Positions 1 to 5,102 of a stretch of 64,000 bases of DNA are shown here, piece by piece. This stretch comes from Pseudomonas sp. MF4836 (GTDB taxonomy: Bacteria > Pseudomonadota > Gammaproteobacteria > Pseudomonadales > Pseudomonadaceae): positions 372,001-436,000 of the forward strand of contig NZ_MVOL01000004.1 of the NCBI RefSeq assembly GCF_002018875.1, given 5' to 3'. A model generated the notes under the pieces. It was not told the DNA's origin. It searched no databases and saw only the letters and a list, made by a program, of their open reading frames with translations. Each line of letters starts with the position of its first letter. Within the stretch, counting starts at the first letter, position 1. Both the position numbers and the translations under genes were made by a program.

Positions 1-104
1 AAAAGTGTGAATTTTTATCAACCCGTGGATGAAATCCTCACACTTTTGCTTCGCAAAAGACGCTTCGCTTGAGAGTATTTCACGGGTTCCTGCCAGAAGG
101 GCAG
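1..104. other. Nested inverted repeats upstream of the relaxase gene; candidate oriT
   Basis: Three exact inverted repeats interlock here: 1-10 with 38-47 (10 bp), 20-27 with 81-88 (8 bp), and a hairpin 43-49/53-59 with a TTC loop; a fourth small stem is 90-94/100-104. They end about 40 bp before the start of the relaxase-like gene. In MobV plasmids such as pMV158 the transfer origin is a set of alternative hairpins just upstream of mob, so this layout fits an oriT. No nick site can be named from sequence alone, and repeats may continue left of the window. Confidence 0.35.
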
Positions 105-141
105 AAGCAACAAATCAAAATAAAAATCCTATGAGGGCTAA

Positions 142-1791
142 ATGAATGGACTAAAAAGTACTACAATGCTATGGAAAAGAATGAACTACTCCGCCCAGCA
201 GGGCAGAGTAAAAAATACACCGGGAATATCTCAATTGAAAAGTTCACTTGATCACAGTCTACGCACTGTGATGAAAAAGGAACTTGAATTCAACCAAGAT
301 CTGGCTCATCGTAATTTTATTATTCGCAATAATAAGATGATTAGGCTGGACAGCCTAACACTTGAGGACAGGCAGAGCCTTGTCAATGAAATATTATCAT
401 CTGTGCAGAGTGACGTAGGCACTCATGAGGGTCTATCAAAGCTCAAAGATGACCGCTCAAAATACGCTTATAAGCTCAAGAAATTGCTATCCAAGGCTGA
501 TGAGCCGGAATCGCTAAAAACGCTCATAAACGGCCTTTTAGACGCTCAGAGCAGCACCCTTTCCACTTCCCTTGTCGATCAAGTCGATTCGATGAACGTT
601 AAGCGTGTAAATGACAAAAAGAAGGCCATAGGCACATATATAAAATTGCACAACGAGATTGTTGCGGCGGGCAATAACTCGTTACACAAAAGTAAAACCG
701 TACTTCAGGAGTGTTTTTTTAAATTTCCAGCAAGAAACAAAGTTAACGAAGTTAAGCCAGTAGATTATCTCCGCATTATTTATGATTTTCACAAGAAATA
801 TCTACCGGACTACGAAATCAAAACCTGCGTATTTCACGGGGACGAGGTGTTAAGTCAAGAGCAAATAAACAATGCTGTGCATCCTCATATATTTATCTCC
901 GGGAAAAACACAAAGTCTGGTCAATATGATTTGGTGCAAGCCCAACTTGATTTGATTAATAGGTATCTCAAAAGTAAGGGTGAGCCAGTTATACAGAATA
1001 ACTCATTCACTGCATCGCAAAAAATAGGCGAAACTTACCAGTGTCTTGTTTATGAGTATGTAAATAAACGATTGAAGGAGTTTGGATATAGTATAGAGGC
1101 GTCCATACATGAAAAAACAAAAGAGCACAAAGAAAAGCTTAAGGCAATAGCAAAAGACGCCCATAAAGCTAAAGTCATGAGGGGCTTTAATCTTTTGAGT
1201 ATGTCGGAGAACGAGCTGAAAAAAGCAGAGCAAGAAAAAAATGATCTAGCAGATCAACAGCGTTCAATTAAATACAAGATACTCTCTATTGATAAGCTCA
1301 GGCTGAGGCTTGTGAAAAAGAACAATCAGCTTGCACAGCAAGCCAACCAGATTAAGGCGGTGTTTAGCGATGCTAAAGCAGCCGTGGATATCTTAAAAGA
1401 TCAGAAGCGCCAGCTAGAAGAACAAAATAACTCTTTGCTAGATAATATTAAATCAAACGAAAAAGTTCTAGGGGCGCGCGTACATTCTGTAGAAAAAGCT
1501 ATTGCACTGTTGGCTCATACAGCTCGGGAACAACAAGATATGAAGCGTGTTTTTGCAGAATTTAAAGAGTCTAACTTTAATATGCTTAAGTCTCTATCAC
1601 CAAGCGAGCGAGTTTATTATATGTATAACATACGTGAGCGCTTAGCTCGTGAGGGTGTTGATGTTTCTGCCGGGAAAATACTCAACCGAACTGATAGTCT
1701 TAAACTTAGTGCTTCTGACGCTTACAATAGCTTGAAGAGGTTTGTCTCAAAAAGAAAGCCAGCAGTCAAAGAGTCAAAGCCAAAAAATTGA
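142..1791 (+). CDS. Divergent MobV-like (Mob/Pre) relaxase, plasmid mobilization protein
   Basis: A 549-residue soluble protein. Residues 232-235 read HGDE and residues 247-251 read HPHIF, which resembles the HxDE...HxHxx metal-binding signature of MobV/Pre relaxases, with about ten extra residues between the two halves. The C-terminal half (about 330-460) is rich in K, E, Q and heptad-like leucines, as in the coiled-coil tail of Mob/Pre proteins. Such enzymes nick oriT and lead a plasmid strand into a recipient. The start is the ATG at 142, preceded by GAGGG; an ATG at 131 opens only a four-codon ORF that overlaps it. The gene is AT-rich and faces the replication gene. Family assignment is by motif only and remains uncertain. 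Confidence 0.55.
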   Translation: MNGLKSTTMLWKRMNYSAQQGRVKNTPGISQLKSSLDHSLRTVMKKELEFNQDLAHRNFIIRNNKMIRLDSLTLEDRQSLVNEILSSVQSDVGTHEGLSKLKDDRSKYAYKLKKLLSKADEPESLKTLINGLLDAQSSTLSTSLVDQVDSMNVKRVNDKKKAIGTYIKLHNEIVAAGNNSLHKSKTVLQECFFKFPARNKVNEVKPVDYLRIIYDFHKKYLPDYEIKTCVFHGDEVLSQEQINNAVHPHIFISGKNTKSGQYDLVQAQLDLINRYLKSKGEPVIQNNSFTASQKIGETYQCLVYEYVNKRLKEFGYSIEASIHEKTKEHKEKLKAIAKDAHKAKVMRGFNLLSMSENELKKAEQEKNDLADQQRSIKYKILSIDKLRLRLVKKNNQLAQQANQIKAVFSDAKAAVDILKDQKRQLEEQNNSLLDNIKSNEKVLGARVHSVEKAIALLAHTAREQQDMKRVFAEFKESNFNMLKSLSPSERVYYMYNIRERLAREGVDVSAGKILNRTDSLKLSASDAYNSLKRFVSKRKPAVKESKPKN

Positions 1792-1838
1792 TATTCGTTA
1801 TGCAGACGGCATTCTATAAATGCCAAGTATATGAAAAG

Positions 1839-1855
1839 ACCGCCTTGTAGGCGGT
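1839..1855. terminator. Hairpin between convergent mob-like and rep genes
   Basis: A perfect 7-bp stem (1839-1845/1849-1855) with a TGT loop is flanked by A-rich sequence on the left and TTAATTT on the right. It sits in the 81-bp gap between two convergent genes, so it could terminate both. A second weaker stem is GGCAT/ATGCC at 1808-1812/1820-1824. Confidence 0.6.
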
Positions 1856-1872
1856 TAATTTGAATTCGAGGC

Positions 1873-2787
1873 TTATCCGAAAATGATAGCGAATGCTTTT
1901 GAATTTTCCGCTTCTTCTGACTTTTTTTCTGTGGTTGATTTTCTTTCTTTTATTAACTCATATTCTATGTACTCAGGGCGATTTCCTTTCTTGTGTACTT
2001 GCCAGCCTTTTTTTATTAGCGCCGCCTCCTCAAGCTTTTTAAATGCTATGTAAATCTGCTCATTTTGGTGCTTTCTTTCACTATATGATTCTAAGCCAAA
2101 GCGTTCAATCATTGCGTTGAAATACATTTTTGTATAGCCGCTGTTAGCTAGCATTTGTATATAAGCGTTTGCAGAAACAGGGCCAAGCAAATTGAGCTTT
2201 GCCATTGCAATCATGCCAATAAAATTTAATTCTTTACTTTCTTTTCTCACGGAGTATACAAATTCAAATCCAACTTTGAGTGTGAAGTTTTTGAATTCAA
2301 AGTTGTAATTTTCTTCATGGTCTTGGTTGTGTATTGTTAACTCGTAAAAAGGTCTTGTTTTTATTACGGCCCCGTCTTTTGTTTTTACGAACGTCATTTC
2401 AGATATGGTATTTAGTGTAGATACAAGCGTTCTTCTCTTTTCGGTTTTTCTATGGAGTCCGGGCTTTAGCCCTATAAGTTTATATACTTCGTCCACAGAG
2501 AAAGTTTGAATGTAGTCTCCAAACTGGTCTGTGTTTATATCTTGGTTGTTGTCTATAAGTTTGAGAATTGCTAGGAAAACCTTGTAGTCAAAATATGAAA
2601 GCCTAACCATTTCTATATGAAAGTCTTTCATGTCGCCTAGCTGTATTTTTCTCGTTTTAGTTCTTGTTTCACCTCTAGTTTTGCTGAAAAGAGCTAAGTT
2701 CATAAAGGTCTTTACGATTGGAATTACACCGCCAGCGGTGTAGATATGAGTTAATCCATAATCCTTTTCTTTTGAGTATTCTTGCAT
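1873..2787 (-). CDS. Probable plasmid replication initiator protein
   Basis: A 304-residue protein with no signal peptide or membrane segment. Its pattern of alternating short helices and beta hairpins, with basic stretches, looks like two winged-helix domains as in plasmid Rep proteins; the stretch LSYFDYKVFLAIL near residue 63 resembles the first domain of such initiators. The strongest support is context: three iterons and an AT-rich tract lie 126-230 bp upstream of its start, the usual layout of an iteron-regulated theta replicon, where Rep binds iterons to open the origin and represses itself. The ATG at 2787 has no strong ribosome binding site. I cannot place it in a named Rep family with certainty; another DNA-binding plasmid protein is the alternative. 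Confidence 0.65.
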   Translation of the reverse strand: MQEYSKEKDYGLTHIYTAGGVIPIVKTFMNLALFSKTRGETRTKTRKIQLGDMKDFHIEMVRLSYFDYKVFLAILKLIDNNQDINTDQFGDYIQTFSVDEVYKLIGLKPGLHRKTEKRRTLVSTLNTISEMTFVKTKDGAVIKTRPFYELTIHNQDHEENYNFEFKNFTLKVGFEFVYSVRKESKELNFIGMIAMAKLNLLGPVSANAYIQMLANSGYTKMYFNAMIERFGLESYSERKHQNEQIYIAFKKLEEAALIKKGWQVHKKGNRPEYIEYELIKERKSTTEKKSEEAENSKAFAIIFG

Positions 2788-2912
2788 GGCATGTTTTTTT
2801 ATTGTGTATATTCATTGTTGCATTTTAAAATGCCTTGTCAAGTTTTCCGACCTTAAATATCTGAGAGTGTCATTGTTTGATAAAGAAGGTTCCTCAAAGG
2901 TGCGGAGTTTTT

Positions 2913-2973
2913 AGGACTAAACCACGACCATCGATAGGACTAAGACACGACCTTGATAGGACTAAACCACGAC
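2913..2973. repeat. Three iterons (AGGACTAAACCACGAC core)
   Basis: Three direct repeats of about 16-17 bp start at 2913, 2936 and 2958, so the period is 23 and 22 bp, about two helical turns. Copy 2 has one change (AAGACAC for AAACCAC) and copy 3 differs at the last base. Regular spacing upstream of a Rep gene is the hallmark of initiator binding sites. Confidence 0.85.
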
Positions 2974-3020
2974 TTTCCTATATATAAATAAGTATTATAA
3001 ATAAATAAAATCTTAAGTAA
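2974..3020. other. AT-rich tract beside the iterons; candidate replication origin
   Basis: Directly after the third iteron the sequence becomes almost pure A/T (TATATATAAATAAG and following repeats of AAATAA). In iteron plasmids an AT-rich stretch next to the iterons is the DNA unwinding element. No clear DnaA box (TTATCCACA-like) was found here, so origin function is inferred from layout. Confidence 0.55.
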
Positions 3021-3427
3021 GGTGAAATTGAAATTTCACTTTACTTCCAATGACTTAGAGATGTTAAGGCAAATGGCAAAAGCACACACCATTCTGGTGC
3101 GCTTCGCGCTTGAAAGGCAGAAGGGTAGGGCAGAACGTCAGGTTTGACGTTCTAAAGGTCCTTTAGGACGATTAAATCTGCTCTGACGTTAAATTGCATG
3201 AACGACAAAAATAACAGCCTAAAAACCCTATTTCTGTTTTTAAAAACTGAACCATACAAACGGCATTTATGCCGCCCAGAACGATCTGCTATGCTTAAAG
3301 ATTTTGCTCGGCCCATAAAGACACGGGTACAAGTCCCCGCGCCTTTCAGCGCCTTTATCAAAAGCTGAAAGCGATTATCAGCAGATGAATGGAGTGCTCA
3401 GCTATATCTCAAGGATTGTTCGAGCGC
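3021..3427. other. Non-coding, hairpin-rich stretch between origin and HEPN gene
   Basis: No convincing gene. It contains a 9-bp perfect hairpin at 3132-3140/3145-3153, a GTCCT/AGGAC stem at 3158-3162/3165-3169, and a perfect CGGCAT-TT-ATGCCG palindrome at 3261-3274. A minus-strand reading frame of 69 codons (3152-3361) has no recognisable features. The stems could be plasmid copy-control RNA, an accessory origin or terminators. Confidence 0.4.
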
Positions 3428-4729
3428 TTAGCCAGTTGCTGAAGCTGGTAATATTGAGGGCGCTTTTAATATTGCCTTTTGGGCAATATTTTTCAAGTCA
3501 TTCAGTGGCTTGCTCTTAAAGTGCTTTACATATTGTTGGTATTTAGGCCACTCGGAAATATAACGGCTTCCACCGTGAACAAGCTCATTTCTTAGTTCGA
3601 AAAGCCATCGTGTTTTTTCCGCTGATTTTTCGTCCAGTCCGAGACTGCTTACACCTGCGACAATAGAGCTTTCAACAGAACCACGTTTACCAAATAGAGC
3701 ATCAAGTGAAATAAAATAGTTAACATATGATTCTATATCGTCGGAATTCATAGCACGGTTTAAAAAGTTAGCTGCTTTTTTTATACGTTGTTTGTACTCA
3801 TTTGGGCAACTATTGAGCGATTCATACCACTTTGCTATTTTCTTGGTTGTATCGTCGCTAACTATAATATCAGATATGTAAAATGGAGAAAGTGCCCCGC
3901 AGTCACTAAGTGTAATTGATCTGTCAGGTGCGGTTTTATGGGGGAACTGAATACAATTAGTATAGGGTTGCGCCATCGACTTTTGAAAGCTGTACTCGGA
4001 TTCCTCCGAGGCATATGCGAAGAGCACAGTAATGAACATTCTGAATTTTAAGCTGCTTGCAAATTTTGCACCCTTCTGAGTACCGTATTCCTCTGCTAAT
4101 AAAATATAATGAAACTCAAACCCACCATTGAAGGAAAATCTAGTATCTACTGTGAACGGAGAGCTTGGGGTCCAGCTGTCAAAAATATACCCTTCCGCGC
4201 TAAACTTGTTCCAAGTTGACTCATCACTGCATGAAATTAAATGCAACCCTTCTTCAGGCAAGGAAAGTGATGGGCCTCTGAATCTGGTTAAAGGGTAAGT
4301 TGTACACCTTTTTCCTATAATACTTCTAAGTTCTTCTTTTATTTCTTCCGAAATTAACTTGGTGAACTCAATAACTGATATATTGCCTTTGCATTCAAAG
4401 AGGTTGGGTTTGCCTCTAAAAACCACGTCGTCGCCATTGAAAAGCGGTTTGTCCAAGCAAATTTTCTGTAGTGTTGAGATAACGATGTTGTTAACAGACT
4501 CTGTATCGCAATCCTTGAACTCTTGTTCTGTTTCGATGATAAGAGAAGTTACCGTATCAATGGCGTTGAAGGTATCTGGGCTATACCACCAGTCGAGTCC
4601 AAAACCTGAGAAAGAATACGGGTCTCGTCGGCCTGCTAAAAACCGGGCAGATGGCATTTTGTCCTCGGCTACCGGACTCAAGAGAATTGAACGCGTCAGC
4701 CTTGCTACCTGAGTCTGTAGTCGATCCAT
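3428..4729 (-). CDS. ApeA-like HEPN domain protein, putative anti-phage RNase
   Basis: A 433-residue soluble protein. Near the C-terminus (residues 380-385) it carries RNELVH, the Rx4H catalytic motif of HEPN ribonucleases, within an all-helical region; the long N-terminal beta-rich part resembles the ApeA N-terminal domain type found in single-gene abortive-infection systems. HEPN effectors of this kind cut RNA after phage infection. I chose the ATG at 4729 because GGAGG lies six bases upstream; a TTG at 4747 is the other option. The gene is AT-rich like the island, reads in the same direction as comM, and could be transcribed from the comM promoter or from a promoter in the 170-bp island end. 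Function is inferred from the motif, not shown. Confidence 0.65.
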   Translation of the reverse strand: MDRLQTQVARLTRSILLSPVAEDKMPSARFLAGRRDPYSFSGFGLDWWYSPDTFNAIDTVTSLIIETEQEFKDCDTESVNNIVISTLQKICLDKPLFNGDDVVFRGKPNLFECKGNISVIEFTKLISEEIKEELRSIIGKRCTTYPLTRFRGPSLSLPEEGLHLISCSDESTWNKFSAEGYIFDSWTPSSPFTVDTRFSFNGGFEFHYILLAEEYGTQKGAKFASSLKFRMFITVLFAYASEESEYSFQKSMAQPYTNCIQFPHKTAPDRSITLSDCGALSPFYISDIIVSDDTTKKIAKWYESLNSCPNEYKQRIKKAANFLNRAMNSDDIESYVNYFISLDALFGKRGSVESSIVAGVSSLGLDEKSAEKTRWLFELRNELVHGGSRYISEWPKYQQYVKHFKSKPLNDLKNIAQKAILKAPSILPASATG

Positions 4730-4902
4730 CGGGAGCCTCCAATCCAATTTGGTCCCTTAGCTTGCCATAGTCATTCGTTGGATTGTCGGGGCTAGCGGAG
4801 AAAGCCACGCTTCCGGTTCCCTAAATCCGTGTTGCTGGTCTGCTCCAGTGGAGCATGAAGCTGCTCCAGCGCATCCAATAGTTTCCCAAAAGTGTACAGC
4901 TT
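4730..4902. mobile_element. Terminal segment of the genomic island at comM
   Basis: Between the HEPN gene and the comM break lies about 170 bp without a gene. A heptamer occurs three times: TGCTCCA at 4841-4847, its inverse at 4849-4855 (a perfect palindrome with one central base), and again at 4862-4868. Such clustered inverted copies near an element end are typical of transposase or recombinase binding sites. Read from comM outwards, island sequence begins near 4902 as AGC followed by TGTACACTTTTGG; a TGT start would suit Tn7-like ends, but the exact base is unproven because the other end is outside the window. Confidence 0.6.
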
Positions 4903-5102
4903 AGCGTGATGCGCCGTGCCGGAAAGTTGAAACCCGAGTTGATGATCGCGCTGCGCACCCGGTCTTTGCTTTCCTTGACCGCTGCTTCCGGTAGCCCCAC
5001 CAGGGTCAGCGCGGGCAGGCCGTTGGCCAGGTGCACTTCGACGCTGACCGCCGGTGCCTGTACGCCGACTTGAGCGCGGCTGTGGATGATCGCCAGAGAC
5101 AT
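4821..5102 (-). pseudogene. comM: comM (YifB, Mg-chelatase-like ATPase) 5' fragment, interrupted
   Basis: The first 67 residues (5102 down to about 4903) match the N-terminus of ComM/YifB, including SLAIIHSRAQVG and the VKESKDRVRSAIINSG block. After RRITL the sequence turns into unrelated residues and stops at 4821, giving a 93-residue chimera. ComM is a hexameric helicase that promotes branch migration during natural transformation and is normally about 500 residues, so this copy cannot be functional. The ATG at 5102 is preceded by AAGGAAGGG. comM is a known integration hotspot (AbaR/Tn6022 islands in Acinetobacter). The missing 3' part should lie on the far side of the island, left of the window. 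Confidence 0.9.

Follow-up and report, generated by a model that had tools for sequence, protein, structure and literature searches.

A candidate iteron-type plasmid origin and its intact initiator-like gene, carried by a small serine-recombinase element that splits comM of Pseudomonas sp. MF4836

Initiators of the Rep_3 type and other plasmid initiators occur on integrative mobilizable elements (IMEs), according to parts of PMC5704250. The same parts describe Tn4451-type IMEs, which combine a serine recombinase, short att repeats in a dispensable gene, and a relaxase, and they report serine-recombinase IMEs from Firmicutes and Clostridia. SGI1, as presented in portions of PMC7433901 and PMC7826253, is an integrated and mobilizable element of 43 kb that carries an iteron origin together with an initiator of its own, a Rep of the RepA_C type. 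It lies in trmE and is switched on by IncA/IncC plasmids; after excision its origin was seen to be active in replication, and firing in the integrated state is considered possible. In Acinetobacter, the AbaR islands are Tn7-like mobile DNA that splits comM, ComM aids the recombination of foreign DNA in transformation, and loss of comM is tied to mobile islands (parts of PMC11472951).

The element described here, element A, resembles each of these systems in part. It shares with SGI1 an integrated state, putative mobilizability, and a candidate iteron origin with its own initiator-like gene, and differs in its size of 6.7 kb, its location in comM, its serine recombinase, and a Rep without a RepA_C-type domain in Pfam. 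Kinship with SGI1 was set aside because the integration site is comM rather than trmE. Like Tn4451-type IMEs, element A has a serine recombinase, short att repeats in a dispensable gene, and a relaxase-like protein; unlike them, it resides in Pseudomonas, in comM, and its Rep and relaxase are unrecognised by Pfam. AbaR islands likewise split comM, whereas element A uses a serine recombinase, and AbaR or Tn7-like kinship was rejected because Pfam assigned no transposase family to any of its four large ORFs. The kind of element is already known; Pfam recognises neither its initiator nor its relaxase.

The window is the stretch of 64,000 bp at C4:372001-436000, on a contig of 522 kb (C4) in a genome of 7.55 Mb assembled in 48 contigs. 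Positions without a prefix refer to the window. The features are as follows.

C4:370210-376906 (window part 1-4911), no strand: integrative element A, 6,696 bp, flanked by pieces of comM and bounded by att cores
C4:370254-371945, outside the window on its left: large serine recombinase of 563 aa, three Pfam domains
1-120, plus strand: candidate oriT and relaxase leader, inverted arms 1-10/38-47 and 20-27/81-88
142-1791, plus strand: relaxase-like protein, 549 aa, motif HxDE...HxH (H232 D234 E235 H247 H249)
1873-2787, minus strand: Rep-like protein, putative iteron-binding initiator, 304 aa, frame open from ATG
2788-2909, minus strand: rep leader, 96.7% identical to P. graminis, DnaA-box-like 9-mer at 2803-2811
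2913-2928, plus strand: iteron 1, AGGACTAAACCACGAC
2936-2951, plus strand: iteron 2, AGGACTAAGACACGAC
2958-2973, plus strand: iteron 3, AGGACTAAACCACGAC
2977-3010, no strand: AT-rich tract, 34 bp, 91% AT, candidate unwinding region
3015-3046, no strand: 15-bp inverted repeat, possible terminator or operator, largely kept in P. graminis
3428-4729, minus strand: cargo protein of the HEPN type, 433 aa if started at the ATG at 4729, containing R-x4-H (RNELVH)
4906-4911, minus strand: attR core, CATCAC in comM sense, at the junction of comM and the element
4906-5102, minus strand: 5' piece of comM (yifB) covering codons 1 to ~66, assigned by Pfam ChlI, NCBIfam YifB, and tblastn against an intact relative

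Element A begins at C4:370210, 1,790 bp before the window start, and splits comM at codon ~66, where both attL and attR can be recognised. The att cores (C4:370210-370215 and 376906-376911) lie 6,696 bp apart and read CATCAC at either end, within comM. The gene is in three pieces, the middle one at C4:~369420-370215, and the NCBIfam YifB match to the 5' piece falls below the cut-offs because the gene is cut. When the comM flanks are joined they give RRITLNLAPADLPKDGGR, which is in frame (RRITLNLAP) and matches the intact comM of locus L073; a strict pattern for this site was found in 22 of 30 comM loci, the genome's own fragment being among the 30. The inferred attP is partly symmetric, with halves agreeing at 14 of 22 positions (45 of 5,000 shuffles were as good), and the comM site is asymmetric (2,871 of 5,000 shuffles were as symmetric). 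The AT content of element A is 59.6%, compared with 37% in the flanks. All four large ORFs, encoding the recombinase and the relaxase-like, Rep-like, and HEPN-like proteins, are open, and none matched a conjugation family. The recombinase has Resolvase, Recombinase, and zinc-ribbon domains, each above the Pfam cut-off. The preliminary description of this DNA had suggested that the origin might be excisable, a suggestion to which the open recombinase, the attL and attR sites in comM, and the partly symmetric attP lend support from sequence.

The anatomy proposed in that description, namely three iterons spaced by 22-23 bp, an AT-rich tract beside them, and an intact 304-residue initiator frame, was recovered in full. 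The iterons start at 2913, 2936, and 2958, are 16 bp long, follow the consensus AGGACTAARMCACGAC, and have start-to-start spacings of 23 and 22 bp. Using a consensus drawn up from these same three copies and allowing at most 2 mismatches, the three sites were the only ones in 64 kb, where 0.04 were expected, and three sites were reached in none of 100 shuffles. A strict, sequence-independent triplet scan (13-bp repeats, no more than 1 mismatch) returned nothing in the window, thereby missing the iterons of element A, and picked up those of one other Pseudomonas locus, L121, alone. A relaxed scan (16-bp repeats spaced 18-26 bp apart, up to 2 mismatches allowed), its settings picked with the iterons already known and after the stricter version had missed them, returned one site in the window, that of element A, and none in the 60 kb upstream of the window or in 300 shuffles of the element. 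Among the 34-bp windows of element A, 14 of 6,661 were at least as AT-rich as the tract at 2977-3010. In iteron plasmids, repeats spaced by 22-23 bp beside an AT-rich tract form a typical origin layout. Two points weigh against reading the site as an origin: there are three iterons only, and the single DnaA box, on the minus strand, is imperfect (1 mismatch). A search of 72,556 plasmid records with the origin DNA gave no match.

The Rep-like protein is the sole match to itself in its own assembly (E up to 0.1) and was present in 1 of 398 genomes of the genus and 1 of 390 of the order, each time the genome it came from. It passed no curated cut-off of Pfam or NCBIfam, PHROGs listed nothing for it at E up to 1, and neither the Rep_3 (PF01051) nor the TrfA (PF07042) model was listed for it at E up to 1; these two models also found no match when run against the whole genome. 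PADLOC gave nothing of weight and PDB sequences no match; no relative was found in the 72,556 plasmid records (E up to 10) or in phage records (E up to 0.1), and viral contigs held no relative of either Rep or the relaxase. Weak similarity was detected by profile comparison. A Rep profile compared with 18 diverse Rep_3 proteins scored 25.9 over residues 209-283, which fall where the second winged-helix domain of Rep_3 sits, and 1 of 200 column shuffles equalled this score. The single Rep sequence scored 23.5, equalled by none of 76 other long frames of the region (best 19.4). These controls were picked from 124 kb as its longest frames without mutual overlap, 200-600 codons in length, and some may be no genes. 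The match is weak (pairwise E 0.0074, one domain covered) and was absent with an earlier, smaller, and less diverse sequence set. The TrfA similarity was weaker still: against 14 TrfA-type proteins it involved residues 28-82, with 8 of 200 shuffles and 1 of the 76 frames doing as well; with one member added, 3 of 200 shuffles were as high. Over these comparisons together it spans residues about 26-82. Both profile sets had been reduced by loci with no suitable central frame (2 of 20 for Rep_3, 1 of 15 for TrfA). The C-terminal part of Rep is suggestive of a distant Rep_3-like DNA-binding domain. Rep resembles Rep_3 and TrfA initiators in size, in the iterons 22-23 bp apart by an AT-rich tract, and in this weak profile similarity, and differs from them in having no match at curated cut-offs. 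AlphaFold models of the whole protein and of its C-terminal part were poor (pLDDT 35 and 49), probably because relatives are lacking. In a fold comparison, the poor C-terminal model matched many winged-helix proteins and some unrelated ones at Z<4, with no plasmid initiator among the 50 matches listed, an absence that carries no weight.

Copies of the module were found in two other species. Pseudomonas graminis (locus L004) carries a counterpart of window positions 1234-4819, in which homology stops within the relaxase and which adjoins a tRNA-Leu gene (L004:5589-5673); module and tRNA-Leu together occupy L004:5589-9580. No comM was present among the frames listed near this copy, and its position beside tRNA-Leu implies that the same replicon entered chromosomes at two unrelated sites. 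Between the copies, rep is 95.6% identical in DNA; the leader, the iterons, and the AT-rich tract with the inverted repeat reach 96.7-97.1%, and the stretch 3047-3300 reaches 95.7%. The shared part of the relaxase is less similar (90%) and the HEPN gene least (75%). All three iterons are visible in the alignment, two with one change each; the relaxed triplet scan did not flag this copy. The P. graminis rep has a stop at codon 228, and the dN/dS of 0.31 for rep is computed from a pair in which one member carries that stop. In P. cichorii (L005) a piece of rep with a frame change runs into unread bases, and iterons are not visible because the contig starts just before rep. Both rep copies found beyond the genome itself (n=2) are therefore broken.

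The motif HxDE...HxH of the 549-aa relaxase-like protein, which we take to be the metal-binding motif of MOBV relaxases, is common to it and three relatives, one of them plasmid-encoded in Vibrio (pSTUT-A16-2), at H232, D234, E235, H247, and H249. When the protein is aligned by profile to two Mob_Pre proteins, the highest-scoring alignment lands on this motif, with 3 of 100 shuffles scoring as high. The protein had no Pfam match of weight, no match in PDB, and no Mob_Pre match above the curated cut-off, in which last respect it differs from MOBV proteins. A tblastn search of the 72,556 plasmid records gave two distant relatives. One is encoded by pSTUT-A16-2, a Vibrio plasmid of 4 kb, next to a gene annotated for replication that matches the Replicase family; the other, in Photobacterium, has a weak Mob_Pre match (E 0.22). 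A closer relative (73.8% DNA identity over 1,832 columns) lies beside the serine recombinase of a comM element, L119, where much of the relaxase leader is also conserved. The Rep of element A had no match in the 24 regions compared, L119 included, so that the relaxase and its leader seem to travel as a module of their own. The 433-aa protein contains R-x4-H (RNELVH), presumably a motif of the HEPN type, and is a candidate RNase defence gene. Its C-terminal part matches PHROG 23812, of unknown function (E 2.7e-8), its match to Pfam HEPN_RiboL-PSP has an E of only 0.98, it had no match in phages, and PADLOC returned no convincing match.

Related elements were sought across Pseudomonas. A second one, element B, lies left of the window at L006:8201-17400 (corresponding to C4:~360200-369400). 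It interrupts this comM again, at codon ~317, and encodes a serine recombinase, a Phage_GPA-type Rep (rolling-circle type), a MobA/VirD2-type relaxase, and a NikA-like protein. Element B also contains two very similar adjacent genes of 183 and 192 codons. Relatives of the element A recombinase (E up to 1e-30) occur in at least 23 of 398 Pseudomonas genomes, its own included, this being a lower bound because at most three candidates were scored per genome. At the loci from the other 22 genomes, comM pieces adjoin the recombinase in 11 (L102, L104, L105, L107-L109, L114-L116, L119, and L123, several from single-contig genomes) and are absent in the other 11. Interruption in the 11 comM loci falls at a third site, codons about 212-216 (alignment ends 202-220), just before or at GPPGTGKT (codon 218); L114 has a single comM piece, near a contig end. 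Two of the 11 elements encode a Phage_GPA-type Rep and a Mob_Pre relaxase. Four carry proteins of 468-518 aa with a cysteine-rich N-terminus (L102:15051-16598, L104:13302-14858, L115:12833-14239, and L116:5445-6854) that had no Pfam family of weight and are possibly replication or transfer proteins of their elements.

The element at L121:8994-15070, one of the 11 without comM pieces, lies beside a radical SAM gene, and parallels element A in its serine recombinase, its iterons 22-23 bp apart, a relaxase (MobA-type, with a MobC-like gene), and a TrfA-like protein. Its iteron spacings are 40, 23, and 22 bp; one further copy was seen by eye at ~15050. The Pfam TrfA model did not list the L121 protein at E up to 0.1; the 14-sequence TrfA profile, which takes in members below the Pfam cut-off, matched it (1.3e-19 for one sequence). 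No significant direct alignment was found between this protein and the Rep of element A. A comM query of 240 residues, taken from the fragment of the present genome, whose own row was left out, gave one unbroken match in 29 of 35 other Pseudomonas genomes; three of the remainder were split by an insertion, two ended at residue 201, and one was split with a stop. In two loci (L124:5745 and L125:6285) comM stops at codon ~282-284, and in L124 it runs on into a frame of 1,684 aa; no serine recombinase was prominent among the frames listed for either. In Pseudomonas, serine-recombinase elements appear to target comM at multiple sites. No report of such elements in Pseudomonas comM was recognised among the literature matches listed, as judged by titles and the starts of abstracts, and a whole-word search of PMC12884075 found comM, yifB, and Mg chelatase all absent.

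Element A is quite probably an integrative mobilizable element whose iteron replicon would maintain the excised circle, as in SGI1. The serine recombinase would join attP to the comM site at codon ~66, presumably reversibly. Maintenance of the circle would depend on Rep, which would bind the three iterons, open the AT-rich tract, and bring in DnaA and helicase from the host. The 549-aa relaxase may nick the leader ahead of its own gene so that a helper system could transfer the circle. These activities (DNA binding, replication, excision, transfer, and control) are inferred; what the sequences show directly is the anatomy, the limits of element A, its open frames, the conservation of rep with the origin, and the presence of related recombinases in comM elsewhere. 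The preliminary description regarded active plasmid origins in a chromosome as usually harmful; with SGI1 and the IMEs as precedents, an integrated origin need not be assumed to be so. Control of the integrated origin is plausible, and it is probably either inactive or tolerated through low rep expression or Rep-iteron control.

That a chromosomal iteron-type origin with an intact initiator-like gene is present is supported by the anatomy, the conservation, and the weak Rep_3 profile match, and the earlier claim stands to this extent, less any assignment to a curated Rep family; a match to a non-Rep family, which would have spoken against it, was likewise not seen above the curated cut-offs of Pfam and NCBIfam or, at E up to 1, in PHROGs. 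A plasmid might instead have been captured by a recombinase element and its origin have become defunct, with Rep now a repressor or neutral. The broken state of the other two rep copies, the low number of iterons, and the failure to find a free plasmid relative in the plasmid records fit such a history, yet all four large frames of element A are open, the noncoding origin is conserved as well as rep while the cargo has diverged to 75%, and rep shows a dN/dS of 0.31, though with the stop noted above; we consider it unlikely. Still less probable is that Rep regulates transcription of the element and that the repeats, which sit ahead of its own gene, are its operators with no origin involved. The weak matches to winged-helix regulators (PadR in Pfam, E 0.028, and the low-confidence folds) agree with a regulator, whereas the Rep_3 profile score above all 76 control frames, the origin-like combination of tract and spacing, and the similar repeats ahead of the TrfA-like protein of L121 argue against one. 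Fusion of a free plasmid to the comM region by misassembly is conceivable in an assembly of 48 contigs and is extremely improbable, given that comM is broken at one and the same codon at the two junctions, which share a core and lie inside a 522-kb contig, and that 11 other genomes, several assembled as a single contig, have related recombinases in their comM.

With an integrated plasmid-type origin as the preferred reading, element A, at 6.7 kb and with four large genes, offers a direct test of how a chromosome tolerates an integrated iteron origin. More tentatively, and short of an even chance in our estimation, Pseudomonas may harbour a guild of small elements with serine recombinases, two of them together in this genome, that insert repeatedly into comM at several codons, carry interchangeable plasmid replicons, alternate between chromosomal and plasmid life, and disable ComM when integrated. 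If so, the initiator family and the relaxase family of element A would both be undescribed so far, and the disabled ComM helicase would also block the transformation that is able to remove the elements. Targeting of comM at multiple sites is relevant to the proposal that mobile elements escape removal by disabling transformation: comM is a target of Tn7-like islands in Acinetobacter, and the loci described here suggest that in Pseudomonas it is a target of serine-recombinase elements.
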